Origin: Planotetraspora silvatica
GTDB lineage: Bacteria; Actinomycetota; Actinomycetes; Streptosporangiales; Streptosporangiaceae
Length of the DNA stretch: 64,000 bases
Assembly: GCF_016863315.1 (NCBI RefSeq)
Contig: NZ_BOOQ01000044.1
Coordinates: 1 to 64,000 of the forward strand
Direction of reading: 5' to 3'
Below are positions 20,155 through 58,275 of the stretch, piece after piece; position 1 is the first letter of the stretch, and each line of letters starts with the position of its first letter. The notes under the pieces were generated by a model. The model had not been told where the DNA came from and made no database searches. It saw only the letters and a list, made by a program, of their open reading frames with translations. The translations under genes and the position numbers were made by a program.

Positions 20155-20176
20155 CCTTCACAACGTCGGTCAAGTT

Positions 20177-35571: not shown

Positions 35572-35649
35572 GTGTGCAGGCGAAGCAGTAGTCCCTCCCA
35601 CTGTTCGCCCGCCGGTCCGATGGTCGACTCGGCGAAGGAGGCCCGGTGA
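35572..35649 (+). CDS. 25-aa leader ORF translationally coupled to LCP gene
   Basis: A short ORF with an excellent ribosome binding site (AAGGAGG, 5 bases upstream of the GTG at 35572) encodes MCRRSSSPSHCSPAGPMVDS then AKEAR. Its TGA (35647-35649) overlaps the GTG start of the LCP gene (35646-35648) as GTGA. This is the layout of a leader peptide used for translational coupling. A second GTG at 35574 would give only five codons. Whether a peptide is made is unknown. Confidence 0.5.
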   Translation: MCRRSSSPSHCSPAGPMVDSAKEAR

Positions 35650-37924: not shown

Positions 37925-39679
37925 GTGAGTGACTCCCGCCACCAATCTCCGGTTCAGCCTTCGGGATCAGGTGTCACCCCCGATGCCGAAGACGGGCCCA
38001 CCGGCGTGATCAGCCGCATCTCGGGCGATCGGCCGCCACCACGAGGGGACGGACTCGAGGCGGGCCGCCGCGAAACCGGTCCGGCCTCAGGGCCCTTCGA
38101 TGTTCCCGCTCCGATCGACAAGCCGCCGCTGCCCGTACGGCAGCCGCGCAGGCGGGGAGCCGTCGCGGCGGCCGGCCAGGCGGATCAGGAGACGCCGGCT
38201 CAGGGGTTCGACTACTTCGCCGCCTCCGCCTCGCCCAAGAGCGGCGGTTCCGACCCCCGCTCACCGGAGACGTCGGGGGCGTGGGCGCTCCAGGGCACCG
38301 GGCCGCACGCCTTCCCCGCCTCGGCCCGGGACCCCCGGGCCCCGCAGTGGCCGGATACCACGCAGGCCGGCGGGCCCGCCGGCCAGTGGGATCCGTGGAG
38401 CCGGACGGCGCAGGACGGCAACGGGGGCGCCCGGCAGGCCTTCGACGGGACCGGGACCACCGACAGGCCGACCCGGGACAGGCCGATGCGGGACCGGCCC
38501 ATTCGGGATCTGCCCGACGAGGACCTCTCCGTGCCCGCGTGGGCGTCGGCACCGGCCCGGACGGCCACGGGACCGCTTCCCCAGGAGTTCACCCAGGGGA
38601 CCCGCCAGGCCGCACCGCCCGGATGGGACGGCCAGGAGCCCGAGCGGGAGCCCGAGCCCGCGCCCCAGAGCAAGAAGCGGCCGCGCGAGCCTTTCCTCGA
38701 CAACGTCAAGTTCGTCCTGATCGCGCTCGTCGCCACCGGCCATTCACTCGTCCCGACCCTGGCGGCCGACTCGTCCCGCGCGGCCTATCTGTTCATCTAC
38801 GTCTTCCACATGCCGCTGTTCGTCACCATCAGCGGCTACCTGTCCAGGAACTTCTGGAACTCCAGCACGAAGACCACCAAGCTCATCGACAACTTCCTGA
38901 TCCCCTACGTCGTCGTCGAGATCGGCTACGCCGGACTCCGCACGGCCTTCGGGCACAAGTTCAGCATCTCGATCACCGATCCCGCCTGGCTGAACTGGTA
39001 CCTGCTCGCTCTGCTGCTCTGGCGGCTGTCGACGCCCGTCTGGCAGCGCGTGCGCTTCCCGCTGGTGATCGCGGTGATCATCTACGTGGTCGCGGGGATG
39101 ACGGATCTCTCCGGCGACTTCAGCGTCGACCGGTTCTTCGGGCTCCTGCCCTTCTTCGTCCTGGGACTGGTGATCAAACCGGGCCTGTTCGAGTTCCTCG
39201 CCCGCGCGTGGGTGCGGGTGCTGTCGGTCCTCGTGATCGCCGGTGCCGCCGCCGTGGCCGTCTACCTGGTCAAGAACTACTCCGTGAAGCTCGGCCCGAT
39301 CTACTACAGCCAGAGCTACCCGGATCTCCACCTCATCTGGTGGAAGGGCATGGTCCTGCGGATGGCGCTCCTCGGCGCCGCGCTCACGATGTCGGCCGCC
39401 GTGCTCTCGCTGATCCCCCGATCCGAGACCTGGTTCTCCGACCTCGGCACGCGCACGCTGTACTGCTACCTCCTGCACGGCGTCCCGGTGATGATCGCGA
39501 AGGAGATGGGCTGGCTGAGCGCCCCGTGGCTGTTCGGCCCGCTCGGAGTGGCGGCCATCGCGAGCGCCTGTTTCGCCCTGGCGATCGTGCTCTGCATGCC
39601 CATCACACGCACGTTCTTCAAGTGGCTGCTGGAGCCCCGGCTCAGCTGGCTCTACCGGAAGTCCGAGCAGCCGGCCTAG
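37925..39679 (+). CDS. acyltransferase family 3 membrane protein with long disordered N-terminus
   Basis: Protein of 584 aa. The first ~250 residues are Pro/Arg/Gly/Asp-rich and disordered, with a short repeated TDRPTRDRPMRDRPIRDLP run. The rest is a ten-helix acyltransferase-3-like domain opening FLDNVKFVLIALVATGHSL (the conserved His) and AYLFIYVFHMPLFVTISGYL. Members of the family O-acetylate or O-acylate wall polysaccharides and lipids. The GTG at 37925 has no strong ribosome binding site, so a start further inside the disordered region is possible. Neighbouring LCP and GT genes support a surface-glycan role. Confidence 0.87.
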   Translation: MSDSRHQSPVQPSGSGVTPDAEDGPTGVISRISGDRPPPRGDGLEAGRRETGPASGPFDVPAPIDKPPLPVRQPRRRGAVAAAGQADQETPAQGFDYFAASASPKSGGSDPRSPETSGAWALQGTGPHAFPASARDPRAPQWPDTTQAGGPAGQWDPWSRTAQDGNGGARQAFDGTGTTDRPTRDRPMRDRPIRDLPDEDLSVPAWASAPARTATGPLPQEFTQGTRQAAPPGWDGQEPEREPEPAPQSKKRPREPFLDNVKFVLIALVATGHSLVPTLAADSSRAAYLFIYVFHMPLFVTISGYLSRNFWNSSTKTTKLIDNFLIPYVVVEIGYAGLRTAFGHKFSISITDPAWLNWYLLALLLWRLSTPVWQRVRFPLVIAVIIYVVAGMTDLSGDFSVDRFFGLLPFFVLGLVIKPGLFEFLARAWVRVLSVLVIAGAAAVAVYLVKNYSVKLGPIYYSQSYPDLHLIWWKGMVLRMALLGAALTMSAAVLSLIPRSETWFSDLGTRTLYCYLLHGVPVMIAKEMGWLSAPWLFGPLGVAAIASACFALAIVLCMPITRTFFKWLLEPRLSWLYRKSEQPA

Positions 39680-41817: not shown

Positions 41818-42708
41818 CTAGACGATCGGCGGGCGGCCGAGGCGGAGCATGCGCCAGGCGGTGCGCCAGGCCATCGGGCGGCGCTCGCCCGCGGGCTGGC
41901 GCAGCCCTTCGCCGAACCCGTGGAACCACGCCTTGAGCGCGCTCGTCGCCCGGACGCGGGCGAGGGTCAGCGCGATCCAGTTGAACAGATACAGGACGGC
42001 CAGCGGCCACGGCAGGTTCCGCCGGGCCAGCCAGACCCGGTTGCGGGCGTTCATCCGGTAGAACTCGGCGTGCCGGCTCGGCAACACCAGGGGGTGGTAC
42101 ATGACCGGCTCGGCGTCGTACTCGATGCGGTAACCCTCGCCGAGCAGCCGCCAGGCCAGGTCGGTCTCCTCGTGCGCGTAGAAGAAATTCTCCGGCAAGC
42201 CGCCGACCTGCAGGTACGCCGACTTCCTGATCGCGCACGCGCCGCCGAGGAAGGTGGTGACGGGCGAGGACCGCTCCGGGTCCCCCGCGCGCAGCCGGGG
42301 AACGTGCCGCCGTTGCACCGAGCCCCCCTCCGGCTCCATGACCCGGAAGGAGATGACGGCGAGGTCGGGCTCGTGGGTGAACCTCTCGCGAACATGCGCG
42401 GCGACCTTGGAGCCGGCGTACCAGCCGTCGTCGTCGAGGAAGAGGACGACGTCGCCCGAACACTCCTGGACGCCTCGGTTACGCCCCTCGGGTATGCCCA
42501 CGTTGTACGGAAGCCGTACCGTCTTGATCGCAGCGGCCGAATCGGGCAGCGGCTGGGCGGTCAGTCCCGGCACGTCGGCGCCGTTGCCGACGATCACCAC
42601 TTCGACGTCGCCGTCGGTCTGGGTCAGGGCGGACTCGACCGCCCGGTCGAGCTCGGCGACCCTGTTGCCCATGGTGAGGATGACGCACGAAAGCTTCACC
42701 GCGGTCAT
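41818..42708 (-). CDS. glycosyltransferase family 2
   Basis: GT-A glycosyltransferase of 296 aa: LSCVILTMGNRVAELDRAVE at the start, VIVGNGADV, NVGIPEGRNRGV, FLDDDGWYAG (DxD) and FFYAHEETDLAWRLL for the acceptor loop. A single hydrophobic stretch near residue 240 may bind the membrane. It is the last gene of the minus-strand series running down from 47.8 kb, after a 190-bp gap that holds an A/T-rich inverted repeat (CTTATTT at 42783-42789 and AAATAAG at 42796-42802). It likely adds a sugar to the polymer or lipid built by that cluster. Confidence 0.87.
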   Translation of the reverse strand: MTAVKLSCVILTMGNRVAELDRAVESALTQTDGDVEVVIVGNGADVPGLTAQPLPDSAAAIKTVRLPYNVGIPEGRNRGVQECSGDVVLFLDDDGWYAGSKVAAHVRERFTHEPDLAVISFRVMEPEGGSVQRRHVPRLRAGDPERSSPVTTFLGGACAIRKSAYLQVGGLPENFFYAHEETDLAWRLLGEGYRIEYDAEPVMYHPLVLPSRHAEFYRMNARNRVWLARRNLPWPLAVLYLFNWIALTLARVRATSALKAWFHGFGEGLRQPAGERRPMAWRTAWRMLRLGRPPIV

Positions 42709-42782
42709 CGCCTCAGCATCGGGACGGCTACATACGATTTCATGATCACCGAGTCTGTATGGCCGGGCAATCCGGAATCCGC

Positions 42783-42802
42783 CTTATTTACTGAAAAATA
42801 AG
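42783..42802. repeat. A/T-rich inverted repeat between CDP-alcohol transferase and GT2 genes
   Basis: CTTATTT (42783-42789) and AAATAAG (42796-42802) pair perfectly around six bases. It stands out in this GC-rich sequence. It may be a terminator for the genes upstream or a promoter-proximal operator for the GT2 gene. Confidence 0.4.
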
Positions 42803-42898
42803 AGTATCGGAACTCCCGGGAAACCCCTACCAAACCACGCATGTACGGACGACCGGTTTCCCCTTGGCCATCGGTCCGATACGTGCGCGCGGTGTTGA

Positions 42899-43657
42899 TC
42901 ACGAGAGCCGCCTCGACGCGAGGATGCTCACCAGATGCAGGATGAGCTGGAGGACGGCGATGATCGCGCACGCGACGACGAGGATCCGGGTGGCGGGGAA
43001 CCAGAAGTCCAGAACGGCGGCCACCACGACGATGATCGACAACTCGATGGCCTGGATGACCCGGTGGAACCGGAGCGCTCCGACCACCTTTCTGGCCAGG
43101 CCGAGACGGCTCGACGTGAACTCCCCCGCCGACGTCTCGGTCGCCGCGACGAGGCCCGAACGGGCCCGGGCGACGTCCACGAGGTCGGTCTCCGACTTGA
43201 TCAGGATCGCGCCCAGAGCCGCGGCGAAACCGAGGATGGTGTACCAGTCGGGGACGGTCTCCGAGGCCCGGAAACCCAGGCCGATGAGCAGCGCGGCCTC
43301 GGCGAAGTAGTGACCCACCCGGTCCAGGTAGATCCCGGTGATCGACGTCCGGCGCGTCCAGCGGGCGAGCTCGCCGTCCGAGCAGTCGAGCAGGAGGTAG
43401 AGCTGGATCAGCAGGGCCGCCGCCAGCGCCGCCCAGAACCCCGGCAGGGCCAGTACGGCTCCCGCCGCAACTCCGGACACGATCATCAGACCGGTGACCT
43501 GGTTGGGCGTGATGGGCGTCTTGGCCAGCAGCCAGGTGGCATAGATGGACAGGTGCCTCATGTAGAGCAGGCCCGCCCAGTGTTCACCACTGCGGCGGTC
43601 CATCGTGGTCTGCGGTTGGGCGACCGCGCGAAGCTCAGCGACCGACGGCGTGGACAT
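42899..43657 (-). CDS. CDP-alcohol phosphatidyltransferase family protein (fourth Asp replaced by His)
   Basis: Membrane enzyme of 252 aa with about six helices that would move an alcohol phosphate from a CDP-alcohol to an acceptor alcohol. The signature reads DCSDGELAR, eight residues, then GIYLDRVGH: the usual DxxDGxxARx8GxxxDxxxD ends with His in place of the fourth Asp, which normally acts as catalytic base. The ATG at 43657 is used; a TTG at 43666 is possible. The start overlaps the dehydrogenase gene by about 23 bp, indicating coupling. It may transfer a polyol phosphate onto a lipid or glycan. Confidence 0.85.
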   Translation of the reverse strand: MSTPSVAELRAVAQPQTTMDRRSGEHWAGLLYMRHLSIYATWLLAKTPITPNQVTGLMIVSGVAAGAVLALPGFWAALAAALLIQLYLLLDCSDGELARWTRRTSITGIYLDRVGHYFAEAALLIGLGFRASETVPDWYTILGFAAALGAILIKSETDLVDVARARSGLVAATETSAGEFTSSRLGLARKVVGALRFHRVIQAIELSIIVVVAAVLDFWFPATRILVVACAIIAVLQLILHLVSILASRRLS

Positions 43658-44693
43658 ATCCCTCAACTTTCGCGCGGACCTCGGTCTCCGAAAGCCGAAG
43701 GTGCTCGAGGATGGTGTAACGGCCGGGCCGCGTGCTCGGAGCCAGCATCACCGCGGCGGTGAACTGCTCGAGGGTCAGGCCGACATCTCCCGGGACGACG
43801 GGCAGATCGTGGCTCCTGAGGCAACCGGCGACGTCGTCGAGCCGGCGGGAGTCCTCGCGGAGGTAGAAGCAGAACGCCGCGCCGATCCCGGCCAGCTCGC
43901 CGTGGTTGGACGTTCCGGGGTAGAGCTGATCCACAGCATGCAGGATCTCATGATCACCGCCGCTGCTCGGCCGGCTTGACCCGGCGATGACCATAGACAT
44001 GCCAGACAGAATCAAAGCTTCCGCGAGGACGGTCAGGAAGGCGTCGGACTCGATCGAGTCCGACCGCCCGAGCACCGCCTCCGCCGCCGTGCGCGCCATG
44101 GAGATCGCCAGCCCGTCGATGGGCTCGCCGCGCTCGATGTTGCCGAGGTGCCAGTCCTCGATGGCCGACAGGTTGCTCACCACGTCGCCGACGCCGCTCC
44201 TGACCAGGGCGGCCGGGGCGTCGTGCACGAAGTCGAGGTCGACCATGATCGCCAGCGGCATGGGCACGCCGAACGAGCCCTTCCCGCCCTCGTGGATCAG
44301 GGAGGCGACCGGCGAGCAGATGCCGTCGTGCGAGAGGTTGGTCGCCACCGCCACCATCGGGATGCCGGCCAGCGAGGCGGCGTACTTGGTCGCGTCGATG
44401 GTCTTGCCGCCGCCGACTCCGACGACGGCCTCATAGGCGCCCTTGCGCAGGTCGGCGCCGAGCGAGACGGCCGCGTCGACGGTGCCGTCGGGCACCCGGA
44501 AGACCCGCGCCTCTCCCAGCGAGGGGGCGATGACCTCGGCGATCCTGTCGCCCTGGCTCGTGCCCACGGCGACCGCGACCCGGCCGGAGGTGGCGACCCG
44601 GCTGTCGGCCAGCAACGCGCCGAGTTGGGCTATCGCGCCCCGCCGGACCTCCATCGTGAGGGGGGCGGGGAGCATTCTTGCCAGAATCGGCAT
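43635..44693 (-). CDS. glycerol-1-phosphate dehydrogenase family (Fe-ADH-like) protein
   Basis: NAD(P)-dependent dehydrogenase of 352 aa. It fits the sn-glycerol-1-phosphate dehydrogenase/AraM group better than ordinary alcohol dehydrogenases: VGVGGGKTIDATKYAA binds the cofactor pyrophosphate, and NLSHDGICSPVASL is the group signature. The metal ligands appear as Asp in RSGVGDVVSNLSA, His in SSGGDHEILHAVD and His in TSNHGELAGIG. It would reduce dihydroxyacetone phosphate to sn-glycerol-1-phosphate, the archaeal-type enantiomer, but other keto-polyol phosphates are possible. GGAG is 5 bases before the ATG at 44693. It is flanked by a nucleotidylyltransferase and a CDP-alcohol transferase. Confidence 0.85.
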   Translation of the reverse strand: MPILARMLPAPLTMEVRRGAIAQLGALLADSRVATSGRVAVAVGTSQGDRIAEVIAPSLGEARVFRVPDGTVDAAVSLGADLRKGAYEAVVGVGGGKTIDATKYAASLAGIPMVAVATNLSHDGICSPVASLIHEGGKGSFGVPMPLAIMVDLDFVHDAPAALVRSGVGDVVSNLSAIEDWHLGNIERGEPIDGLAISMARTAAEAVLGRSDSIESDAFLTVLAEALILSGMSMVIAGSSRPSSGGDHEILHAVDQLYPGTSNHGELAGIGAAFCFYLREDSRRLDDVAGCLRSHDLPVVPGDVGLTLEQFTAAVMLAPSTRPGRYTILEHLRLSETEVRAKVEGYVHAVGR

Positions 44694-44758
44694 GAGAACT
44701 CCTCAGGCGGCGAGAACGTCGTGCGCGTGGGGTCGGGGAGCCGGGCGGCCCGGTGGTC

Positions 44759-45490
44759 CTAGTAGCGGCATGCGATCTCACGGGCCTTCGCAAGGTCGTC
44801 GTGGTTGTCCACCTCGACCCAGTCGACCTTGCCGATCGGCGCCACCGCGATCTTCTCTCCACGGGCGACCATCTCCTGGTAGCCGTCCTCGTAGTAGAGC
44901 TGCGGGTCGCGCTCGAACGTCGTCTGGAGGGCGTCGGCCAGCCGCTCCGCCGCTCCGGGCCTGATCAGCGTCGCGCCGATGTACTCGCCGTACGCCTCGG
45001 ACGGCTCCATGAGCTTGGTGATCCTCTTGAGCCGGCCGTCCTCGAGGGTGACCTTCATCTCCTCGTCGCCGAGGGACTTCACGTCGTCGACCGCGAGCAG
45101 GACGTCCCCGCCGTCGTCAGCGGACAGCAGCGTCCGCTCCACGGAGACCGGGTGGACGGTGTCCCCGTTGACCAGCAACGCACCCTGCCCGAAGTAGTCA
45201 CGCGCGCACCACAGGGAGTACGCGTTGTTCCACTCTTCGGCCTTGTCGTTGTGGACGAGCGTCAGCGTGACCCCGTGACGGCGCTCGAGGTCGGCCTTGC
45301 GCTCGTGTACGGCCTGCGCCTGGTAGCCCACGATGACCACGACCTCGCGGAGGTCTACCGCCGCGAGGTTGCGCAGGGCGATGTCGAGGATCGTGGTCTC
45401 ACCGTCGACCGGCACCAGTGCCTTGGGCAGGGTGTCGGTGTACGGCCGCAGGCGGCGTCCAGCCCCTGCTGCCAGCACCATTCCGAGCAA
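44759..45490 (-). CDS. NTP-transferase (cytidylyltransferase-like) for a polyol or choline-type phosphate
   Basis: Nucleotidylyltransferase of 243 aa: VLAAGAGRRLRPYTDTLPKA is the GxGxRLxP nucleotide loop, LVNGDTVHPVS holds the metal-binding Asp, and KVDWVEVDNHDDLAKARE the C-terminal metal/product site. This short form with EVDNHDDL resembles phosphocholine and inositol-1-phosphate cytidylyltransferases rather than hexose ones. The start is a TTG at 45490 with GGAG 9 bases upstream; an ATG at 45481 is possible. The dehydrogenase follows after 65 bp. I infer it activates the product of that enzyme with CTP. Confidence 0.85.
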   Translation of the reverse strand: MLGMVLAAGAGRRLRPYTDTLPKALVPVDGETTILDIALRNLAAVDLREVVVIVGYQAQAVHERKADLERRHGVTLTLVHNDKAEEWNNAYSLWCARDYFGQGALLVNGDTVHPVSVERTLLSADDGGDVLLAVDDVKSLGDEEMKVTLEDGRLKRITKLMEPSEAYGEYIGATLIRPGAAERLADALQTTFERDPQLYYEDGYQEMVARGEKIAVAPIGKVDWVEVDNHDDLAKAREIACRY

Positions 45491-45538
45491 TTTCTCGCAC
45501 TCCTCGAGGTCGACCGTCAGACAGTAACCTCAAAGGTT

Positions 45539-45579
45539 AGTTGGCTTTTGGTCCGGATTGTGTAAGCCAGAGTTGGCTT
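45539..45579. repeat. 9-bp direct repeat in the nucleotidylyltransferase promoter region
   Basis: agttggctt occurs at 45539-45547 and 45571-45579, 32 bases apart, about three helical turns. It lies 49-89 bases upstream of the nucleotidylyltransferase start, in a comparatively A/T-rich 134-bp gap that probably holds its promoter. It could be a tandem activator or repressor site. Confidence 0.4.
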
Positions 45580-45624
45580 GTAGTTAACCATGCGTGCCGT
45601 ACCGGTGTGTTCGCGGAATGCGGC

Positions 45625-46245
45625 TCAGCCGGGCTCCGCGGCGCCCGCCACCTCCGCCCGACGGGGTACGGCGAGCCAGGAGGTGAGGCTCTCCCAGAGG
45701 AACAGGCCCCACAGGTAGACCGCGAGAATCCAGAAGTCAGCGGTCACCGCGCCGAACAGGCCGCCGGCGGCGATGACCAGCATGCGACCGTCCCAGCCCA
45801 GCCCGGCCATGGCGAGCCACTGCGGCGGATAGACGTGCTGACGCACGCGGTAGACGGTGTCGTAATGATGGAAGGCCATGGCGCCCAGCACCGCCATGAT
45901 CAGCAAAGGTGGCACGGAACGGGCGAACCCGATCGAGGCGACGAAGCCGTACTCCGTGAGCCGCAGGATCGGTGGGACGAGCCAGTCGAGCCGCCCGTCG
46001 TGCCGGTGCGAGCTGCCCGAGCCGGCCAGCAGCAGGGCCGCCGCCGGGGCGAACACCGCGACGTCGTCGACGCTCGCCACTCCCATGACCAGGAGGACCC
46101 CGGTCACGAAGGCCCCCACGAGCGCTGGAGGAAGCGGGGGCAGCTGGCCGACGACCAGGAGACCCATGCTCCTCGCCAGCAGCCCGTCGTCGCGGTAGGC
46201 CACCACGGCGCTGCGCGGCACGGGTGTCATCTGTACGGAGATCAT
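45625..46245 (-). CDS. DUF5941-like membrane protein
   Basis: Protein of 206 aa from the ATG at 46245 (GAGG 6 bases upstream), with about five hydrophobic segments and a central FHHYDTVYRVRQHVYPPQWL. It resembles the DUF5941 region that in other actinomycetes accompanies or is fused to a CDP-alcohol phosphatidyltransferase. Here the two are separate genes only 22 bp apart, so a gene split or a natural two-gene form is likely. Function unknown; it probably works with the CDP-alcohol transferase upstream. Confidence 0.6.
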   Translation of the reverse strand: MISVQMTPVPRSAVVAYRDDGLLARSMGLLVVGQLPPLPPALVGAFVTGVLLVMGVASVDDVAVFAPAAALLLAGSGSSHRHDGRLDWLVPPILRLTEYGFVASIGFARSVPPLLIMAVLGAMAFHHYDTVYRVRQHVYPPQWLAMAGLGWDGRMLVIAAGGLFGAVTADFWILAVYLWGLFLWESLTSWLAVPRRAEVAGAAEPG

Positions 46246-46267
46246 GAATTGCCTCGCATCATGCTCA

Positions 46268-47824
46268 TCATGCGAAGGACCTCGCGATCCGGCCGGCGAG
46301 CGTGTAGAGGAGCGCGCCACCGCCCCAGGTCAGCAGGGCCAGGAACGTCACCCGGGCGTCGAACAGTGCGGCCGTGACGGCTATCAGCGCCATCCGCTCC
46401 CCGATGGGCAGCACGATGATCTTCTTGAGCCAGTAGGCCGCACCCGAGTCGAGCCGTCTCGACAGTGCGAGCACGGACGCGGCCCCGGTGGCCGGGGGAC
46501 GCGTTCCCTGCACGGTGTCCCACGCATCGGCGAGCGAATACTCCCGTTCCGCCGGGTCGGCCGCCTTGGCGGCGTCCGCCACCGACCCCGAATAGGAGAA
46601 GTCGACCAGGTGCCTGACCGTCTGGAGGATCATCACCGCGACGGCCAGCGTCCAGATGCCGCGGGGCCCCTCCGGCGCCGCCGCGTAGCCTACGGCGAGG
46701 CCCGCGTACACGACGTACTCCTTCACCCGGTCGGAGATCGCGTCGAGCCAGTTCCCCAGCGGAGAGAACGTGCGGGTGTAGCGGGCGAGCTGTCCGTCGA
46801 CGCAGTCGAGCACGAAGGACAGGTAGAGCGCGAGGGCGCCGATGATCTGGGCGAGCCGGTCGCCCTCGGAGAACCAGACCGCGGCGATGGCGGCCAGGCC
46901 GATGGAGATGCCCGTGACCGCGTTCGGCGTGAGGCTCAGCCGGGCGGCCGGCCGTACGAGATGGCGCGACCACGAGCTGACGCAATAGGTCGCGAAGAAA
47001 CCGTCACCGGTCTTGATGGCCGCGTCCAGCCGGGCCGCCTGCTCGTCGACCTCGGCGAGCCGCTGAACGGCCGCGTCCGCCGCGATCTGACCGGCGACCC
47101 TCTCGCAGTGCAGCGGGCCGATGGCGGCGGCGCGTACGGGCACTCCCGCACGCACGAGCCCGGCCAGTAGCAGGTCGGCGACCTCGGTGTCCCCCGCGCG
47201 GCCGAGCTGACGGCTCTGCGCGAGCCGGGCGAGCTCGTCGGCCACATCGGCGAGGCTCCCGAGATGCGCCTCCCCCACCTGGAGGACTCCGCGGAAGGTG
47301 CCGTTGGCCCACTCGACCTGGTGGAAGGAGTTCCCCGCGGAGAGCACCGTGCTCGACTCGGTCCTGACCGGCGGGCGGAGCGGCCCCGCCTCCCCGTTCC
47401 CGACGATGGCGCCGGTGCCCCTCGACGGATGCTCGAGCAGGGCGGCCAGCGCCTCGGTGTGGGCGACCACGTCACCCGACAGGACGGCCACCGCGCTCGT
47501 GGACGACCTGGCCACTCTCGCCACGATCCGCAGGTCCTCCGCGAGCCCGTCGCTCGCCGTGACGGTGTGCCGGAACTCGGCCGCGCCGTCCAGGCCCGCC
47601 ACGTCGTCCAGGCCCCGGAAGCTGTCGTCCCCGCGCGTGACCACGTGGACGTCCCGGACCGGCAGCAGGATCAGCTGACGCGTGAGCCTGCCGAGGAGGC
47701 TGCCGCCCGCGCAGGCCAGCCCGGCGAGCGGCGTGGTGGCGAAGACCACCACCACACTCCGGGCGGCCTCCGCACGGGACACGAGATTGTCCGAGACGCC
47801 GTGCCTGCTCAGATCTGCGCCCAT
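46268..47824 (-). CDS. CDP-alcohol phosphatidyltransferase with degenerate nucleotidyltransferase-like N-domain
   Basis: Protein of 518 aa. Residues about 10-240 look like a decayed nucleotidyltransferase fold (VVVFATTPLAGLACAGGSLL where a GxGxR loop would be; AVAVLSGDVVAHTEALAALL). The C-terminal half is a CDP-alcohol transferase with the complete signature DCVDGQLAR...GNWLDAISD and about six helices. The NTase plus CDP-alcohol transferase order recalls the archaeal/thermophile inositol-phosphate cytidylyltransferase-phosphotransferase fusion. The ATG at 47824 has GGGAA 4 bases upstream; 47890 is the longer alternative. First gene of the minus-strand operon, divergent from the IspD-SDR gene. 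Confidence 0.82.
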   Translation of the reverse strand: MGADLSRHGVSDNLVSRAEAARSVVVVFATTPLAGLACAGGSLLGRLTRQLILLPVRDVHVVTRGDDSFRGLDDVAGLDGAAEFRHTVTASDGLAEDLRIVARVARSSTSAVAVLSGDVVAHTEALAALLEHPSRGTGAIVGNGEAGPLRPPVRTESSTVLSAGNSFHQVEWANGTFRGVLQVGEAHLGSLADVADELARLAQSRQLGRAGDTEVADLLLAGLVRAGVPVRAAAIGPLHCERVAGQIAADAAVQRLAEVDEQAARLDAAIKTGDGFFATYCVSSWSRHLVRPAARLSLTPNAVTGISIGLAAIAAVWFSEGDRLAQIIGALALYLSFVLDCVDGQLARYTRTFSPLGNWLDAISDRVKEYVVYAGLAVGYAAAPEGPRGIWTLAVAVMILQTVRHLVDFSYSGSVADAAKAADPAEREYSLADAWDTVQGTRPPATGAASVLALSRRLDSGAAYWLKKIIVLPIGERMALIAVTAALFDARVTFLALLTWGGGALLYTLAGRIARSFA

Positions 47825-47949
47825 CGCGTTCCCGCTTCCCAGCTCGACCACCCCCCCGAGAGTCACATCGCAACGTAACCGAGTGATCACGAGGTGGCAA
47901 TCGCCTTGCCCTTCTCCTGACGCGGGTATGGTCAGGTGGGGAGGAGATC

Positions 47950-49356
47950 ATGATCGCGGAGTCACGCCTTCGGACGGTCGGAGTGGTGCTTGCCGGAGGT
48001 ATCGGGCAGCGGATGGGCCTGAACACGCCGAAGCAGCTACTGAAGATCGCCGGCAGGACGATCATCGAGCACACGCTCGACACGTTCGACGGCCATCCGG
48101 AGATCAACGAGGTCGTGGTGCTGATGGCCCCCGGCTTCGTCGACGAGGCCGCGGAGCTGGTGCGCAGGAACGGCTACACCAAGGTGAGCAAGATCCTCGA
48201 AGGCGGCGCGAGCCGTACCGAGTCGACGTGGCGCGCCCTGCAGTCGCTGGGCGAACAGGAGTGCGACGTGCTGCTGCACGACGCCGTCCGGCCGTTCGTC
48301 GAGCCGCGGGTGATCAGCGAGTGCGTCGCCGCGCTCCGCCACCATGAGGCCGTGGACGTGGTGATCCCGTCGTCCGACACCGTCCTGGTCGCCGCCCCCG
48401 GGCCGCACGGCGACATCGTCCACGAGATCCCCGACCGCTCCCTGCTCCGGCGGGGACAGACCCCTCAGTGTTTCCGGTTGTCGGTCATCCGCGAGGCCTA
48501 CCGGCGGGCCTTCGCCGACCCCGGGTTCGGCGCGAGGCCCGCGACCGACGACTGCGGCGTCATGGTGCGCTACCTGCCGGACGTGCCGATCCACCTGGTC
48601 GCGGGCAGCGAGCAGAACATGAAGGTCACCCATCCGATCGACGCGTTCATCGCGGACGGGCTCTTCCGGCTGCGTGGACGGGCGGCTCCGGCGCTCACCG
48701 ACGACGAGTGCCGCCGCGGTCTCGACGGCAGGACGCTGGTGGTCTTCGGCGGCGGGCACGGCGTCGGAGCCGAGCTCGCCGACCTCGCCAAGGGTTACGG
48801 CGCGACGGTCCGCTCGTTCTCCCGGAGCCGGGGCGGGGTGCGCGTGGAGGACGCCGGCGCCGTGGACGACGCGCTCGCGCACGTGCACGCCGAGACCGGC
48901 CGCATCGACCACGTCGTGAACGCCGCCTCGGCCCTGCACGTCGGCAGGCTGGCCGACACCGGGCAGACCGCCCTCGCCGAGATCGTGGCGGTCAACTACC
49001 TCGGCCCGGTCAACATCGCCAGGGCCTCGCTCGGGTATCTGGCCGAGACCCGCGGGCGCCTCCTGCTCTGTGCGTCGTCCTCGGACGTCCGCGGGCGGGC
49101 GGGCCGCAGCCTCAACTCGTCCACGGCGGCCGCCGTCGTGAACCTCGCCGAGGCGCTCGCGGACGAATGGGCCCCCCAGGGGGTCCGGGTCAACTGCCTG
49201 AACCCCGAGCGGGCGGTCACGGCCACTCCTGTCGCGCCCTCGGCGGACTCCGGTGTCACCGGCACGATTCCACCGGAGGCCGTCGCCCGCACCAGCCTCG
49301 ACGTCCTGCTGTCCGACCTCACGGGACAGGTGGTGGACATCCGCCTCAGGCGATGA
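47950..49356 (+). CDS. bifunctional-type IspD-like cytidylyltransferase fused to SDR domain lacking catalytic Tyr/Lys
   Basis: Protein of 468 aa. Residues 1-235 are an IspD/TarI-like cytidylyltransferase: VVLAGGIGQRMGLNTPKQLL, GGASRTESTWRAL, LLHDAVRPFV, RRGQTPQCFRL and TDDCGVM. From about 258 an SDR Rossmann domain begins VVFGGGHGVGAEL. In the Bcs1-type relatives (ribitol-5-P cytidylyltransferase with ribulose-5-P reductase) the SDR site is YxxxK. Here the matching stretch reads SLNSSTAAAVVNL, so Tyr is Asn and Lys is Ala, and reductase activity is unlikely. GGGGAGGAG lies 3 bases upstream of the ATG. The glycerophosphotransferase gene follows after 34 bp. Confidence 0.87.
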   Translation: MIAESRLRTVGVVLAGGIGQRMGLNTPKQLLKIAGRTIIEHTLDTFDGHPEINEVVVLMAPGFVDEAAELVRRNGYTKVSKILEGGASRTESTWRALQSLGEQECDVLLHDAVRPFVEPRVISECVAALRHHEAVDVVIPSSDTVLVAAPGPHGDIVHEIPDRSLLRRGQTPQCFRLSVIREAYRRAFADPGFGARPATDDCGVMVRYLPDVPIHLVAGSEQNMKVTHPIDAFIADGLFRLRGRAAPALTDDECRRGLDGRTLVVFGGGHGVGAELADLAKGYGATVRSFSRSRGGVRVEDAGAVDDALAHVHAETGRIDHVVNAASALHVGRLADTGQTALAEIVAVNYLGPVNIARASLGYLAETRGRLLLCASSSDVRGRAGRSLNSSTAAAVVNLAEALADEWAPQGVRVNCLNPERAVTATPVAPSADSGVTGTIPPEAVARTSLDVLLSDLTGQVVDIRLRR

Positions 49357-49390
49357 TCGGAAACGCCCTCCCCTGGGTAGGCAGCGGTGC

Positions 49391-51253
49391 ATGGAGGGAT
49401 CGTTCACGGGGAGAAACGCCCTGCTCATCGGGGTGTTGCTCGCTTCTTATCCGGCATTGCTCGCGGCCGCGCTGTGGCCCGCCACATGGGCCTTCGCGGT
49501 CGCGGCGGCTCTGTCGTACGCGGCGGAGGCCGGCCTGCGCAAAGCCGTCCGCGACCGACTCGGCAGGATTCATCTCGGATCGATGCTCCGGTACACGGCC
49601 AGGGAACTCGCCGTCGTGGTGCTGCTCGCGCGCGTGGCGGGAACCGAGTCCCGCGGTTTCCTCCTGTTCGCCGGCGGGCTGTTCGCCCTCCACTGCGTGT
49701 GCGTCGCGCAGACCGCGCTGGCGACCTATCTGAACAGCTGTCACCACCTCATGCCGGTCACCGCGGCGAACCTCGACCTGTCGGCGCTGCGGATCCCGCC
49801 CGCACCCCCCGCGAGGCTCGTGGCGTGGCGTGGCACCCGGTTGCTGCCCCTCGACGCGCTGCCCGTGGGGCTCGCCGCGTTCGGCGCGCTCTCGGCCACC
49901 CCCTGGCCCGGCGTCGCCGGCGCGGCCGCCGCGGTCCTCGTGGTGCTCGCCGCCGCCCTCACACTCGTCCCGCACGTACGGCGGGCGACCCACCTGCGGG
50001 ACCGCGCTCAGGTCATCCAGGCGGTCGACGAGCAGGTGCGCGCGTACGCGCCCGAGGTCCTGCTCTATTTCTCCGGCTCGGTGAAGTCGGTCTACCAGGC
50101 GACCATGTGGCTGGAGACCCTGGAGCGCATCGGCCGCAGGACGGTCGTCGTCCTGCGGCAGCGCAGCCTGCCCGCCGTCCTGGGACCGACCACGCTGCCG
50201 GTGGTGTGCATCCCCTCGGCCGTCGACCTCATGAACTTCCGCGGCCTCGACTCGGCCGGTGTCGCCCTGTTCGCGGCCAACGTGGGCAACAACATCCACC
50301 TGCTCAGGAAGCCGGGCGTCACCAGCGTGTTCATCGGGCACGGGGACAGCGACAAGGAGGCCTCGTTCAACCCGTTCACGAAGGTGTACGACGAGGTCTG
50401 GGTCGCGGGCCCGGCCGGGCGGGAGAGGTACCGGCACGCCGAGGTCGGGGTCCGTGACGAGGCCATCGTCGAGGTGGGCCGCCCCCAACTCGCCGCGGTG
50501 CTTCGCGGCAGCCCGTACACCCGGGGGACGCTGCCGGTGCCGACGGTTCTCTACGCGCCGACGTGGGAGGGCTGGACCACCGACCTGTTCCACACCTCGA
50601 TCGACCTCATGGGTCCGCGTCTGGTGCGGGCGTTGCTGAACGAGCCCGTCCGGCTGATCTACCGGCCCCATCCGCTGACCGGCCACAGGTCGGCGGCCGC
50701 GCGGGCCGCGCATCGGAAGATCATGGCTCAGCTGCGGGACGCCCACGCGGACGGCCCGTGGGCACACGTGGCGGTGACCGGCGGAGGGCCCGATCTCTAC
50801 GAGTGCTTCAACCAGGCCGACCTGCTTATCGGAGACATATCGAGCGTCGTGTCGGACTTCGTGGCGAGCGGCAAGCCGTACGTCGTGACGAACGTCGCGG
50901 GGCTGCCCGACGACGAGTTCCGCGCGCGCTGTCCCAGCGCGCGTGCGGCCTACCTCCTCGGCCATGACCTCGGCGGCCTTACCGGCGTCCTCGCCTCCCT
51001 CAGGGAAGGCGAGGACACCATGGCCGCGGCCCGCCGCGAACTGCGCGCCCACCTGCTGGGCCCCGACGAACCGGACGCGCTCACCCGCTTCGACGAGGCG
51101 GTCGGCAGAGCGGTCGCCCGTTCACGTGCCGGACGGGCCGTCGGGACCGGCGGAGCCTCAGTCCTCGAACAGGTCCTGCAGGCGCGCCCGCTCGGCCTCG
51201 GGCCGGGTCTTGCTGAGCCGGGACGGGCTGGTGAGGAAGCCGGTGCCCCATGA
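49391..51253 (+). CDS. CDP-glycerol glycerophosphotransferase family protein with N-terminal membrane domain
   Basis: Protein of 620 aa. The first ~210 residues hold about six membrane helices. The catalytic domain (about 225-585) resembles teichoic-acid polyol-phosphate polymerases: FIGHGDSDKEASFNPFTKVY with the catalytic His, LYAPTWEGWTT, LIYRPHPLTG and DLLIGDISSVVSDFVASGKP. It would transfer glycerol phosphate or a similar polyol phosphate from a CDP donor. The ATG at 49391 is chosen because the membrane domain starts there, although its ribosome binding site is weak. The last ~35 residues are low-complexity and overlap the convergent GT2 gene by 96 bp, so the stop may have been extended by mutation. 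Confidence 0.85.
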   Translation: MEGSFTGRNALLIGVLLASYPALLAAALWPATWAFAVAAALSYAAEAGLRKAVRDRLGRIHLGSMLRYTARELAVVVLLARVAGTESRGFLLFAGGLFALHCVCVAQTALATYLNSCHHLMPVTAANLDLSALRIPPAPPARLVAWRGTRLLPLDALPVGLAAFGALSATPWPGVAGAAAAVLVVLAAALTLVPHVRRATHLRDRAQVIQAVDEQVRAYAPEVLLYFSGSVKSVYQATMWLETLERIGRRTVVVLRQRSLPAVLGPTTLPVVCIPSAVDLMNFRGLDSAGVALFAANVGNNIHLLRKPGVTSVFIGHGDSDKEASFNPFTKVYDEVWVAGPAGRERYRHAEVGVRDEAIVEVGRPQLAAVLRGSPYTRGTLPVPTVLYAPTWEGWTTDLFHTSIDLMGPRLVRALLNEPVRLIYRPHPLTGHRSAAARAAHRKIMAQLRDAHADGPWAHVAVTGGGPDLYECFNQADLLIGDISSVVSDFVASGKPYVVTNVAGLPDDEFRARCPSARAAYLLGHDLGGLTGVLASLREGEDTMAAARRELRAHLLGPDEPDALTRFDEAVGRAVARSRAGRAVGTGGASVLEQVLQARPLGLGPGLAEPGRAGEEAGAP

Positions 51254-52228
51254 CAGGTGCATCGTCGCGTAGACGAGCGGGAGCCGCAGGAGCGCGGCCG
51301 GGGACAGGCCTCGTCCGGTGAGCACCGACCCGGCGAGGATCGCCACGATGTAGGCGGCGGGAATCAGCAATCCCGGCCAGAAGAACGGTGAGACGACCAG
51401 ACCGAGGACGATGGCCAGCACCGCCGCGGGCGGGGCCAGGTAGCGCAGGTTGATCGTGCCCTTGTGGGTGCGCGAGACGACCCGCCGCCACCGGCCGTAG
51501 TGGAAGTACTGCTTCGCCAGCGCCCGGGCGTTCGGCCGGGGCCGATAGGACACCCGCATGCGCGGCTGGAACCACACCAGGCCGCCGGTCTCCCGGATGC
51601 GGTGGTTCATCTCCCAGTCCTGGGCACGCTGGAAGTGCTCGTCGTAGCCGCCGACCCGGTCCAGCGCCTCACGCCGGAACACGCCGAGATAGACGGTGTC
51701 CGCCGGGCCGGCCTCGCCGCCGGTGTGGAACCGCGCGTTGCCGACACCGATCTTGGAGGTCATCGCGCACGCCACGGCCTGCTCGAACGGGCTGACCCCT
51801 TCGGCGGCCATGATGCCGCCGACGTTGTCGGCGCCGGTCTCCTCCAGGGTCTCCACGGCTGCGCGCAGATAGTCGGCTGGGAGCATCGCGTGCCCGTCGA
51901 CCCGGGCGATGACGGGATTGCTCGAGGCGGCGACGGCCACGTTCAATCCGTTGGGAGTGCGGCCGGTCGGGTTGGCCACGACGACGACGCGGGAGTCCTC
52001 GGCCGCGATCGCGTCGGCGACCTCCTGCGTGCGGTCTCGGGACGGGCCGACGCTGATGACGACCTCGATGGGACCGTCGTACTTCTGGTCGAGGACCTGC
52101 ATGACGGCATCGCGCAGGTGCCGTTCCTCGTTGAGTACCGGCATGATCACCGATATGGGGGGCCAGTCGCGCGTGGGGGTCTGGCCAGTTTGGCGCGAGT
52201 CGGGAAAGGGCTTCATGGCTGCGCTCAC
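51158..52228 (-). CDS. glycosyltransferase family 2 with C-terminal membrane helices
   Basis: GT-A enzyme of 356 aa: ISVIMPVLNEERHLRDAVMQ, VVISVGPSRDRT, VARVDGHAML (the DxH/DxD site) and YDEHFQRAQDWEMNHRIRE (the ED and QxxRW-like region). About four helices lie after residue 255. It is of the type that extends exopolysaccharide or wall glycan at the membrane. The GTG at 52228 or the ATG at 52216 may be used. It is divergent from the LCP gene (47 bp) and its 3' end overlaps the glycerophosphotransferase gene tail to tail. Confidence 0.87.
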   Translation of the reverse strand: MSAAMKPFPDSRQTGQTPTRDWPPISVIMPVLNEERHLRDAVMQVLDQKYDGPIEVVISVGPSRDRTQEVADAIAAEDSRVVVVANPTGRTPNGLNVAVAASSNPVIARVDGHAMLPADYLRAAVETLEETGADNVGGIMAAEGVSPFEQAVACAMTSKIGVGNARFHTGGEAGPADTVYLGVFRREALDRVGGYDEHFQRAQDWEMNHRIRETGGLVWFQPRMRVSYRPRPNARALAKQYFHYGRWRRVVSRTHKGTINLRYLAPPAAVLAIVLGLVVSPFFWPGLLIPAAYIVAILAGSVLTGRGLSPAALLRLPLVYATMHLSWGTGFLTSPSRLSKTRPEAERARLQDLFED

Positions 52229-52275
52229 GCTACTGTACGGAGGGGTGGAGACGGCAACCGAAAGGGTGACCGCGA

Positions 52276-53820
52276 ATGCCTGGCGACGACGATGAGATCG
52301 GCGACTCCGGCGTCCACGTAGGCGGCGACGCCTACGGCGGGATCAGGATCGCAGCCCGTCGCGCCCGCCGAAGCCGGACGAACCTCCGCTCTCTTCTCAT
52401 CTCGGGCTCGTTGTCCAGCGCCGTTCTGATCGGATCCGGCGTGCTGTGGGTGATCCCCAACTACGCGGCGAGCCAGATCCAGTCCGTCGACGCGGGCACC
52501 ACCGACACCCCCGCGCAGGGGGCGATGAACATCCTGCTCGTCGGCGTCGACAAGCGCGACGACCTCAGCAGGCGGCAGCAGAACCAGCTCCACCTCGGCC
52601 GCGAGGCCGGCGAGCGCAGCGACACGATGATGGTGCTCCACCTTTCCGAGGACCACAAGAAGGTCACGGTCGTCAGCCTGCCCAGGGACACCTGGACCGA
52701 GATCCCCGGCAACGGCACGCACAAGATCAACTCGGCGTACCAGTTCGGCGGGGCGAAGCTGGCGGTGAAGACGGTCGAGCAGGCCACCGGGCTGCGCATC
52801 AACCACTACGTCGAGGTCAACGTGCTCGGCTTCATCGACGTCGTGGAGTCGCTGGGCGGCGTCACCGTCTGCACTCCCATCGCCATCGACGACCCGAAGA
52901 CCAAGCTCTCCCTGCGGCCGGGCACCTACAACCTCAACGGCGTCGACGCGCTCGCGTACGCGCGTACGCGAGCCACGGCCCGCGCGGACCTCGACCGCAT
53001 CGACCGGCAGCAGCAGGTCATCTCGGCGCTTCTCGGCAAGGCGCTCAGCGGCGGCACCCTCGCCAATCCGGCCAAGCTCGCCGGGCTGGTCAGTTCCACG
53101 CTCAAGACGCTGACCGTGGACAAGGCCCTGTCCGACGATCTGCTCGGGCTGGCCAACCAGCTCAAGGACGTCTCCACCGACGACGTGTCGTTCGCGACCG
53201 TGCCGCTGTCCGACGTGAACTACAAGGCGCCGACGGGCGAGTCCGCCGTGTTGTGGGACAAGCCGGCCGCGCGGGAGCTGTTCCGGCAGATCTCGGCGGA
53301 CGAATTGCAGGCCGGGCCGGTCAAGCGCCGCTCCCCCGCCCCGTCCGCGCCGGTCTCCGCTCCGGCTTCCCCGCCCGCCTCCGCGCCGCCCTCCCCGGGC
53401 GCCACGCCGTCCGCGTCCGCGACCGCGACCGCGCTGACGATTCCCCCGGGACGCATCGCGGTCCGCGTCCTCAACGGCACCCTGATCACCGGGCTGGGCG
53501 CCAAGACCAAGGCGAGCCTGCTCGCGGCGGGCTTCATGGTCCCCTCGACTCCCGGTGACGTGCCCGAACGGAACGTCACCAACACCGTGATCCGTTATCC
53601 AGCCGGCCGCGAGGACTCGGCCCGGACGGTGGCCGCCGCGTTCCCCGGAGCCGAGCTGCGGGAGCGGAAGGACATCCAGAGCATCGAGGTCGTCGTCGGC
53701 CAGAAGAACAACAAGGTCAAGAAGGTGAAGGTCGCGACCGTCAAGCCGTCTTCCACGCCGGCGTCGATCCCCTCCGCCCGTACGGCCACGCAGAACATCT
53801 GCAAGAACCAGGCGAACTGA
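52276..53820 (+). CDS. LytR-CpsA-Psr (LCP) family protein, second copy
   Basis: Ligase-type protein of 514 aa expected to attach an anionic glycopolymer to peptidoglycan from its lipid carrier. A short basic cytoplasmic region (IRIAARRARRSRTNLRS) precedes one helix at about 39-60. The LCP domain has MNILLVGVDKRDD, GERSDTMMVLHL, VVSLPRDTWTEIP, HKINSAYQFGG and YARTRATARADLDRIDRQQQ, with the Asp/Arg residues that bind the pyrophosphate. A Pro/Ala/Ser linker leads to a LytR_C domain (about 390-470). It differs from the 35.6-kb copy in lacking the long disordered N-terminus. Position at the end of the polyol-phosphate block supports wall attachment of that polymer. Confidence 0.92.
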   Translation: MPGDDDEIGDSGVHVGGDAYGGIRIAARRARRSRTNLRSLLISGSLSSAVLIGSGVLWVIPNYAASQIQSVDAGTTDTPAQGAMNILLVGVDKRDDLSRRQQNQLHLGREAGERSDTMMVLHLSEDHKKVTVVSLPRDTWTEIPGNGTHKINSAYQFGGAKLAVKTVEQATGLRINHYVEVNVLGFIDVVESLGGVTVCTPIAIDDPKTKLSLRPGTYNLNGVDALAYARTRATARADLDRIDRQQQVISALLGKALSGGTLANPAKLAGLVSSTLKTLTVDKALSDDLLGLANQLKDVSTDDVSFATVPLSDVNYKAPTGESAVLWDKPAARELFRQISADELQAGPVKRRSPAPSAPVSAPASPPASAPPSPGATPSASATATALTIPPGRIAVRVLNGTLITGLGAKTKASLLAAGFMVPSTPGDVPERNVTNTVIRYPAGREDSARTVAAAFPGAELRERKDIQSIEVVVGQKNNKVKKVKVATVKPSSTPASIPSARTATQNICKNQAN

Positions 53821-54036: not shown

Positions 54037-54861
54037 ATGGATACTGTGATCAACGTCCGCGGGCTGCGGATGTCGTACGGCGAGCGACAGGTCCTGCGCG
54101 GGATCGACCTGGACCTGCGACGGGGCGAGACCGTCGCCCTGCTCGGCCCGAACGGCGCCGGGAAGACGACCACGATCGAAATCCTCCAAGGGCTGCGGAC
54201 CAGGACGGCGGGCGAGGTCCAGGTGCTCGGCGAGGACCCGGCGCGCGGCGGAGACGCCTGGCGGGCGAGGCTCGGCACGGTGCTGCAGGACTGGCGCGAC
54301 CACCCTCGCTGGCACGTGCGGACCCTGCTCGACCATGTCGCCGCCCACTACCCCACCCCGTGGGACACCGGAGAGCTGCTGAAGACGCTCGGCCTCGACG
54401 GGCACGCGATCGCCAGGGTCCGGGAGTTGTCCGGCGGGCAGCGCAGACGGCTCGACGTGGCGCTGGGCATCGTCGGCCGGCCCGAACTGCTCTTCCTCGA
54501 CGAGCCGACCACCGGCTTCGACCCGGAGGCGCGCAGGGAGTTCCACGAACTCATCGAGGGCCTGGACACCACGGTCCTGCTCACCACGCACGACCTGGCC
54601 GAGGCCGAGCGGCTCGCCGACCGCGTCGCCGTGCTCCTCGACGGCCGGATCGCCGTCTTCGGCACCCCGCAGGAGGTGGCGACAGCCGTACAGGCTCCCT
54701 CCCTGGTGCGGTGGCGGGACGGGACCGAGCAGACCGACGACCCGTCGGAGCTGGCCTGGCGGCTGCACCAGCGGTACGGCGGACCGGTCCCCGAACTGGA
54801 GATCCGGCGGCCGAGCCTCGAAGAGAGCTACCTCAACCTGGTGGAAAGGAGCGCGGCATGA
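54037..54861 (+). CDS. ABC transporter ATP-binding protein
   Basis: ATPase subunit of 274 aa for an ABC-2 type exporter. Walker A is LLGPNGAGKTTTIE, the Q-loop region GTVLQDWRD, signature LSGGQRRRLDVALG, Walker B LLFLDEPTTGFDP and the H-loop LLTTHDLAEAE. The last ~60 residues form the extra domain common in drug and lipid exporters. The stop overlaps the permease start (ATGA), so both are made together. Substrate unknown. Confidence 0.95.
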   Translation: MDTVINVRGLRMSYGERQVLRGIDLDLRRGETVALLGPNGAGKTTTIEILQGLRTRTAGEVQVLGEDPARGGDAWRARLGTVLQDWRDHPRWHVRTLLDHVAAHYPTPWDTGELLKTLGLDGHAIARVRELSGGQRRRLDVALGIVGRPELLFLDEPTTGFDPEARREFHELIEGLDTTVLLTTHDLAEAERLADRVAVLLDGRIAVFGTPQEVATAVQAPSLVRWRDGTEQTDDPSELAWRLHQRYGGPVPELEIRRPSLEESYLNLVERSAA

Positions 54862-55637
54862 CCACGATGACGCTGGGGATCAGGCGCGGCCTGATCGAGC
54901 AGAACGCCATCCTGCGTGACCGCAAGGAACTGAGCACCAACATCGCGGGCCTGATCATGTACCTGATGCTCATCCTCTGGATCGGCCGCAACCCCGCAGG
55001 CGGCGGCGTCGGGATGACCGCGTTCATGACGGTGGGCTTCGTCGCGTTCACGGTGTTCTCCGCCGGGATCATGACGCTGCCGATGCTGATCGCGGCCGAC
55101 CGCGAGGAGGGCGCGCTGCTCCGGCTGCGCATGCTTCCGCGTGGCATCCCCGTCTACATCACGGGCAGGGCGGTGTCGCTGACGCTGCACATCGCCGTGC
55201 ACTCGGCGCTCATGCTGGCGATCGGCGGCGCGATCGGCGGCCTCGCGCTGCCCTCGAGCCTGTACGGCTGGGCGACGCTGATCTGGGTGCTGGGCCTGGG
55301 CGCGCTCTCGGTCATCCCTCTGGGGGCGATGATCGGGGCGATGTTGCCCACCGCCAAGGCGGCCGCGGCGGCCGTCGGCCTCCCGAGCATGCTGCTGATG
55401 ATCGCTTCGGGGGTCATGGTCCCCATGACGATGATGCCCGCGCCCGTGCAGTGGGCCGCGCAGATCTTCCCGCTCTACTGGCAGGGACACGGACTGCGGG
55501 CGGCGTTCTTCGCCTCCCCCGGCGGCGAACTGCACGGCACGTGGGAGCTCGGCACGGCCGCGATGGTGATGGGCGCCTGGGCGGTCGCCGGTATGGTGCT
55601 GGCACCGTGGCTGCTGCGCAGGGTCACAGGCAAGTGA
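54858..55637 (+). CDS. ABC-2 type transporter permease
   Basis: Membrane subunit of 259 aa with six helices, partner of the ATPase upstream. The helix pattern (NIAGLIMYLMLILWIG; FMTVGFVAFTVFSAGIMTLP; ALSVIPLGAMIGAMLP; SMLLMIASGVMVPMTMMPAP; MGAWAVAGMVLAPWLLRR) and the MMPAPVQWAAQIFPLYW loop are typical of ABC2_membrane proteins. A conserved cytosolic ADREEGALLRLRMLPRG loop contacts the ATPase. Confidence 0.93.
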   Translation: MTTMTLGIRRGLIEQNAILRDRKELSTNIAGLIMYLMLILWIGRNPAGGGVGMTAFMTVGFVAFTVFSAGIMTLPMLIAADREEGALLRLRMLPRGIPVYITGRAVSLTLHIAVHSALMLAIGGAIGGLALPSSLYGWATLIWVLGLGALSVIPLGAMIGAMLPTAKAAAAAVGLPSMLLMIASGVMVPMTMMPAPVQWAAQIFPLYWQGHGLRAAFFASPGGELHGTWELGTAAMVMGAWAVAGMVLAPWLLRRVTGK

Positions 55638-57369: not shown

Positions 57370-58275
57370 TTGCGCCGAGTCGGCCTCATCGTCACGACCG
57401 CCCTGGCCGCCATGGCGGTGGTCGCGACCACAGCGGCCGCCGATCCATCAACGGTGATCGGCGTCGCCCACCGCGGAGCGTCGGCGTACGCGCCCGAGAA
57501 CACCGTCGCGGCCTTCGAGCTGGCCGCCGAGCAGGGCGCGGACATGTTCGAGCTCGACGTTCAGGAGACCAAGGACCACAAGCTGGTCCTGATGCACGAC
57601 ACGACGCTGAACCGCACCACAGACGCGGAAAAGGTCTTTCCCAACCGGAGCTCCTGGAAGGTGGGCGACCTGACCCTCGCGCAGATCCGCAAGCTCGACG
57701 CCGGTTCGTGGGCCGACGCCGATTACGAGGGCGAACCGGTGCCCACTCTCGGCGAGGCGCTGGGCGCGATGCGGGGAAGCGGGCTCGACCTGCGGCTGGA
57801 GATCAAGTCCCCGCACCTCTACCCGGGCATCGAGGGCCGCATCGCCGGCACGCTGCGCCGCAACTCCTCGTGGCTCAGCGAGAACCGGCTCGTCATCCAG
57901 TCGTTCGACAGGGACTCCCTGCGTACCTTCAACAAGGAGCTGCCCCAGGTGCCCATCGGCCTGCTCGGGACACCGAGGACCGCGGATCTCGACGACCTCG
58001 CCAAATTCGCCGACGAGATCAACCCGCCGTACGCCGACGTCACCCCCTCCTACGTCAAGTGCGTACACGACAACGGCATGAAGATCTTCACCTGGACCGT
58101 GAACGATCCCGACGACATGAGCCGCATGACCTCCTACGGCGTAGACGGCATCATCACCGACAAGCCAGACGTGCTGAGCGAGATGGCCGCCACCCCGGAC
58201 CAGCTGCCGATCACCACGGAGATCACGCACCTCCAGGGGCCTGTTCCTGCTCGGCTACAACATGATCGCGGCTAG
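57370..58275 (+). CDS. secreted glycerophosphodiester phosphodiesterase
   Basis: Protein of 301 aa starting at a TTG at 57370 (GGGGAG 7 bases upstream). An N-terminal signal peptide (LIVTTALAAMAVVATTAAAD) exports it. The GDPD active site is VAHRGASAYAPENTVAAFE with the catalytic HR, then FELDVQETKDHKLVLMHD giving ExD and the second His. It would release sn-glycerol-3-phosphate from glycerophosphodiesters, and could also degrade teichoic-acid-like polymers. The last ~20 residues (ITHLQGPVPARLQHDRG) do not look like the usual family end and may result from a late frameshift. Confidence 0.9.
   Translation: MRRVGLIVTTALAAMAVVATTAAADPSTVIGVAHRGASAYAPENTVAAFELAAEQGADMFELDVQETKDHKLVLMHDTTLNRTTDAEKVFPNRSSWKVGDLTLAQIRKLDAGSWADADYEGEPVPTLGEALGAMRGSGLDLRLEIKSPHLYPGIEGRIAGTLRRNSSWLSENRLVIQSFDRDSLRTFNKELPQVPIGLLGTPRTADLDDLAKFADEINPPYADVTPSYVKCVHDNGMKIFTWTVNDPDDMSRMTSYGVDGIITDKPDVLSEMAATPDQLPITTEITHLQGPVPARLQHDRG

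Follow-up and report, generated by a model that had tools for sequence, protein, structure and literature searches.

Teichoic acids receive glycerol phosphate by two described routes, the sn-1 form from phosphatidylglycerol outside the membrane and the sn-3 form from cytosolic cytidine diphosphate (CDP)-glycerol (PMC7086022, PMC5974469). Bacteria can also carry enzymes of the glycerol-1-phosphate dehydrogenase (G1PDH) family, as in the AraM-PcrB pathway of Bacillus, and work on the lipid divide has included counts of actinobacterial G1PDH genes (PMC5059525, PMC6431249). A syntenic region with araM, tagG, tagH, a CDP-alcohol transferase, a family 2 glycosyltransferase (GT2), and a sugar-phosphate nucleotidyltransferase (NTase) has been reported across Streptomyces genomes (PMC13118837). 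Here we describe a G1PDH-containing gene cluster of Planotetraspora silvatica, found in positions 1 to 64,000 of contig NZ_BOOQ01000044.1 (the whole 64,000-nucleotide stretch is called the window). The best reading of its sequence, which we judge to have about an even chance of being right, is a route from dihydroxyacetone phosphate (DHAP) through sn-glycerol-1-phosphate (G1P) and CDP-sn-1-glycerol to a surface glycopolymer.

The cluster shares a G1PDH-family enzyme with the Bacillus pathway but differs in what accompanies it: the partner is a cytidylyltransferase-type NTase, and PcrB/GGGPS is missing. A preliminary description of the window had noted this absence locally; it extends to the whole 8.66-Mb genome, and in a sample of 297 actinobacterial genomes the PcrB/GGGPS searches returned short fragments only (≤24.7 bits). 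Thus, G1P is unlikely to enter PcrB-type ether lipids. Like TagD/TagB/TagF synthesis of wall teichoic acid, the system has a PF04464 polyol-phosphate transferase, a LytR-CpsA-Psr (LCP) protein as the proposed ligase, and, in other genomes, a TagGH-like exporter. Unlike it, the predicted enantiomer is sn-1, CDP-alcohol transferases are in the core, and TagD is absent. There was no match to a TagD-type CDP-glycerol synthase in the genome or in those of four congeners, and the TagD model found nothing above its cutoff in 26 genomes, with B. subtilis as the positive control. Consequently, CDP-glycerol, if it is made, requires another enzyme, for which the NTase is the obvious candidate. We also considered the qim operon of Streptococcus pyogenes as a parallel and rejected it, as it has no matching genes.

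The gene grouping is widely conserved. The same block occurs in 20 relatives, with its order mostly kept. Among 70 named Streptosporangiales loci, each with at least 8 kb on either side, the genes for GT2a, CDPt1, G1PDH, NTase, DUF5941, CDPt2, and the IspD domain (Table 1) were present in every one, in identical order and on identical strands. Strong G1PDH matches (at least 150 bits) were found in 33 of the 297 genomes of the phylum-wide sample, and in 28 of these an NTase gene lay ≤260 bp away; the two genes overlap by an identical 10 bp in 11 of the 28. The other five genomes consist of one with a weaker adjoining NTase match, two with the match at 3.3 kb or 15 kb, one in which the contig ends, and one with no match. 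This grouping is far beyond chance, and the co-occurrence across actinomycetes that the preliminary description proposed as a check is what we found. In a divergent group the G1PDH-NTase pair has exopolysaccharide-type genes as neighbors, among them one for a polyprenyl glycosylphosphotransferase. In several genomes of another family, which is probably Streptomyces, the gene order is TagH-like, TagG-like, GT2a, CDPt1, G1PDH, NTase, and then CDPt2 fused to DUF5941, in agreement with the published Streptomyces region. Because that synteny is in print, the cluster has not gone unnoticed; the two regions share the gene set. The published account lists synteny only (PMC13118837); to it our analysis adds gene order, pairing, a pattern of decay, domain architecture, and a proposed mechanism, all from a different actinobacterial order.

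The G1PDH-family protein matched PF13685 with 105 bits (cutoff, 28) and is 100% identical to the G1PDH of Planotetraspora mira NBRC 15435. It scored 173 to 207 bits against 3ce9 and three solved G1PDH sequences versus ≤70 bits against other glycerol dehydrogenases, and it shares an SRPxSGxxH region with archaeal G1PDH. Residues D170, H248, and H264 were invariant in 17 aligned sequences; from family knowledge, we take them to be the ligands of an Asp-His-His metal site. For the NTase, the nearest solved relative is LicC (1jyk, 67 bits), with which it shares NDKxxxxNNxYSL and GxGxRLxPxT..PKALV motifs, and overall it is closest to LicC, PntC, and inositol-1-phosphate cytidylyltransferases. It is a proposed cytidine triphosphate (CTP):G1P cytidylyltransferase. 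CpgD, which is a phosphoglycerate cytidylyltransferase, likewise has a choline-phosphate-cytidylyltransferase-like fold (PMC13228409).

Both CDP-alcohol transferases have AF2299 as their closest relative among solved structures, and the donor pocket of AF2299 accommodates the glycerol of CDP-glycerol (PMC4634129). The preliminary description had called the NTase a cytidylyltransferase type and the two membrane proteins CDP-alcohol transferases; the likeness to the CTP-using LicC/IPCT group and to a CDP-glycerol-taking enzyme agrees with both. CDPt1 (62 bits to AF2299) has the motif D1xxD2GxxAR-x8-GxxxD3xxx(H/A), which lacks the fourth Asp. CDPt2 has the full D1xxD2GxxAR...GxxxD3xxxD4 motif, and D362, D365, D383, and D387, with all other motif residues, were invariant in 34 sequences. 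Its start is uncertain, residues 1 to 42 being disordered. Profile alignment of its N-terminal domain with the NTase was merely suggestive (P = 0.022), and the fold was settled by an AlphaFold model (predicted local distance difference test score [pLDDT], 81): the best Foldseek match was IPCT-DIPPS (4mnd, E = 2e-15), followed by AF2299, with both domains covered. Thus, CDPt2 resembles these Archaeoglobus proteins in joining a cytidylyltransferase-like domain to a CDP-alcohol phosphotransferase. It differs from them in its wall-polymer neighborhood, in having a separate, active-looking NTase gene, and in the loss of the usual nucleotidyltransferase signature from its own N-terminal domain, which is probably inactive because of that loss. 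DUF5941 is a stable member of the operon and is fused to CDPt2 in other actinobacteria (e.g., a 617-amino-acid protein). Its own structure model was poor (pLDDT, 65).

The observed gene content, order, conservation, and protein families, together with the absence of GGGPS and TagD, suggest a pathway for which we infer the substrates, enantiomer, acceptor, and polymer structure. The G1PDH-family enzyme would reduce DHAP to G1P, which the NTase would convert with CTP to cytosolic CDP-sn-1-glycerol. CDPt2, with DUF5941, and CDPt1 would then transfer glycerol-1-phosphate to a lipid-linked glycan acceptor shaped by GT2a and GT2b. Export may be by a TagGH-like transporter, the gene for which adjoins the operon in other actinobacterial lineages, and an LCP protein, for which LCP2 is proposed, would fix the product to peptidoglycan. 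Two exporter candidates were rejected. The ABC transporter of the window (54037 to 55637) is DrrA-like, and TagG matches in 63 of the 70 loci were judged an artifact because the N-terminal part of the query reading frame (locus L033) is antisense to IspD; the trimmed permease had a single 27% match in the genome, on contig C69.

If this pathway is correct, cytosolic CDP-sn-1-glycerol would be a third route to the glycerol phosphate of teichoic acids. With no recognizable GGGPS, the sampled actinobacteria leave G1PDH without a role, and the cluster would account for its retention in bacteria that do not form archaeal lipids. G1PDH alone would then be an unsafe marker of such lipids. The fixed pairing of G1PDH with a cytidylyltransferase-type NTase and CDP-glycerol-type transferases makes a role in the cell wall directly and cheaply testable.

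Several points weigh against this pathway. LicC-type NTases also accept phosphocholine, phosphonates, inositol phosphate, and phosphoglycerate. The G1PDH-family protein, at 233 bits, missed the cutoff of 413 for the archaeal equivalog NF002022, and the window has no TagGH gene. All 21 CDPt1 sequences of alignment A3 have H or A at the D4 position, and MtPIPS becomes nearly inactive when this catalytic-base Asp is replaced by Asn (PMC4634129). Finally, the solved enzymes to which CDPt2 is nearest form small soluble phosphodiesters rather than polymers. The most far-reaching form of our proposal is less likely than not: an actinobacterial wall glycopolymer of G1P made in the cytosol through CDP-sn-1-glycerol, in which AF2299-like transferases replace TagB/TagF as glycerophosphate transferases or polymerases and CDPt1 works without the catalytic Asp.

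CDP-alcohol transferases are classically enzymes of lipids or solutes. The substrates of AF2299 and IPCT-DIPPS are soluble (PMC4634129), as would be expected if the operon made no wall polymer but a phosphoglycolipid of the membrane or a small, soluble diester of the diglycerol phosphate or glycerophospho-inositol type. We consider this outcome somewhat unlikely, since GT2a is an unfailing part of the operon, a TagGH-like glycopolymer exporter adjoins it elsewhere, an LCP gene adjoins it here, and the pair of the divergent group is next to exopolysaccharide genes. The enzyme might instead act on another ketose phosphate or polyol, with the NTase activating that product and no G1P being formed. 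The score far under the equivalog cutoff would fit, as would the breadth of a fold that also holds glycerol dehydrogenases, dehydroquinate synthases, and 2-deoxy-scyllo-inosose synthase, but the much stronger matches to solved G1PDHs, the SRPxSGxxH region, and AF2299-like transferases that point to CDP-glycerol make this possibility unlikely.

The preliminary description had added a second branch, in which the IspD-type enzyme supplies another CDP-polyol. The G1P, CTP, and CDP-alcohol transferase half of that scheme is the best supported and corresponds to the pathway above; an IspD-fed polymer branch is doubtful here. The IspD motif is intact in the window and in all 70 loci, whereas the SDR (short-chain dehydrogenase/reductase) domain of the window has NSSTA in place of YSSAK and so has lost the catalytic Tyr and Lys (YxxxK). 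YxxxK was kept in 35 loci, all of which have the PF04464 gene; of the 35 without it, 18 retain PF04464 and 17 have lost it. SDR decay and PF04464 loss were associated (Fisher P = 1e-6, with loci counted as independent despite shared descent). Decay appears stepwise, the SDR domain going first and the PF04464 gene second, with IspD intact throughout (window 47950 to 49356; L061 to L140). In addition, a paralogous triad on contig C2 (508 to 514 kb; L057) encodes CDPt2-like (39% identity), IspD-SDR (61%), and PF04464 (63%) proteins, all in the same orientation and close to uppS and recO; its SDR keeps YSSAK, and it has no G1PDH or NTase. Thus, a single mixed polymer made from G1P and a CDP-polyol (probably ribitol) that the window IspD-SDR supplies through PF04464 is quite improbable: the IspD part is nearest TarI, the PF04464 gene adjoins, and half the loci hold an intact SDR with PF04464, but the window SDR is decayed, no locus has lost the G1P operon or IspD, the intact triad lies apart, and the genome has no other IspD.

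Our preferred reading, the G1P route, treats IspD-SDR and PF04464 as a separate, decaying module whose IspD part would persist for a different reason, perhaps isoprenoid synthesis. That part scored 102 bits against TarI, its nearest solved relative, and 96 bits against Mycobacterium smegmatis IspD (2xwl), and missed both NCBIfam cutoffs. The genome has only two IspD domains, both in IspD-SDR fusions (window and C2); a third PF01128 match, on contig C9, was rejected because the sequence looks like GlmU. There is no ispD between carD and ispF, which are separated by a 17-bp gap (contig C57, 47.7 to 48.65 kb; L200, 1004 to 1971). For these two reasons, one of the fusions probably serves the methylerythritol phosphate pathway, and the retention of IspD while SDR and PF04464 decay suggests that it is the window copy. 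Elsewhere, contig C23 (150 to 170 kb; L059) encodes large GT2-PF04464 fusion proteins and another CDP-alcohol transferase, and is probably a separate teichoic acid locus.

Table 1 gives the genes of the cluster. Every gene named in the preliminary description was recovered where it had been placed, with domain matches and a high-GC (guanine-plus-cytosine) coding signal (third-position GC, 0.86 to 0.94), as was the layout of divergent operons plus a convergent GroPT/GT2b pair, which overlaps by 96 nucleotides; the DUF5941 gene had been overlooked. The minus-strand operon is transcribed in the order CDPt2, DUF5941, NTase, G1PDH, CDPt1, GT2a, and the start of CDPt1 falls inside the 3' end of the G1PDH gene. 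The plus strand carries IspD-SDR and then GroPT, on which GT2b converges, and LCP2 is divergent from GT2b.

TABLE 1 Genes of the cluster, with positions in the window
Gene and product	Position	Strand	Evidence
GT2a, family 2 glycosyltransferase, last gene of operon	41818..42708	-	PF00535 65 bits; 70/70 loci
CDPt1, CDP-alcohol phosphotransferase-family membrane protein	42899..43657	-	PF01066 27 bits
G1PDH-family dehydrogenase (EgsA/AraM type)	43635..44693	-	PF13685 105 bits
NTase, LicC/IPCT (sugar-NTase) type, TTG start	44759..45490	-	PF00483/PF12804
DUF5941 membrane protein	45625..46236	-	PF19365 91 bits
CDPt2, degenerate cytidylyltransferase-like and CDP-alcohol phosphotransferase domains	46268..47890	-	PF01066 45 bits
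IspD-SDR fusion	47950..49356	+	PF01128 153 bits; SDR 70 bits
GroPT, membrane-anchored polyol-phosphate transferase	49388..51253	+	PF04464 39 bits
GT2b, membrane GT2, convergent with GroPT	51158..52228	-	PF00535/PF13641; 69/70 loci
LCP2, LCP and LytR_C protein	52276..53820	+	PF03816 164 bits; PF13399 57 bits

Upstream of the cluster the window encodes a second LCP-LytR_C protein (35646 to 37649) and an acyltransferase-3 membrane protein (37925 to 39679), which suggests a wider cell envelope island. A secreted-looking glycerophosphodiester phosphodiesterase (GDPD) is encoded nearby (57370 to 58275), and a GDPD gene also adjoins IspD in another locus (L033, 3749 to 4501). Farther away (15933 to 22953) are genes for coenzyme F420, encoding CofD, FbiB, and a fused FO synthase with two radical-SAM (S-adenosylmethionine) domains.

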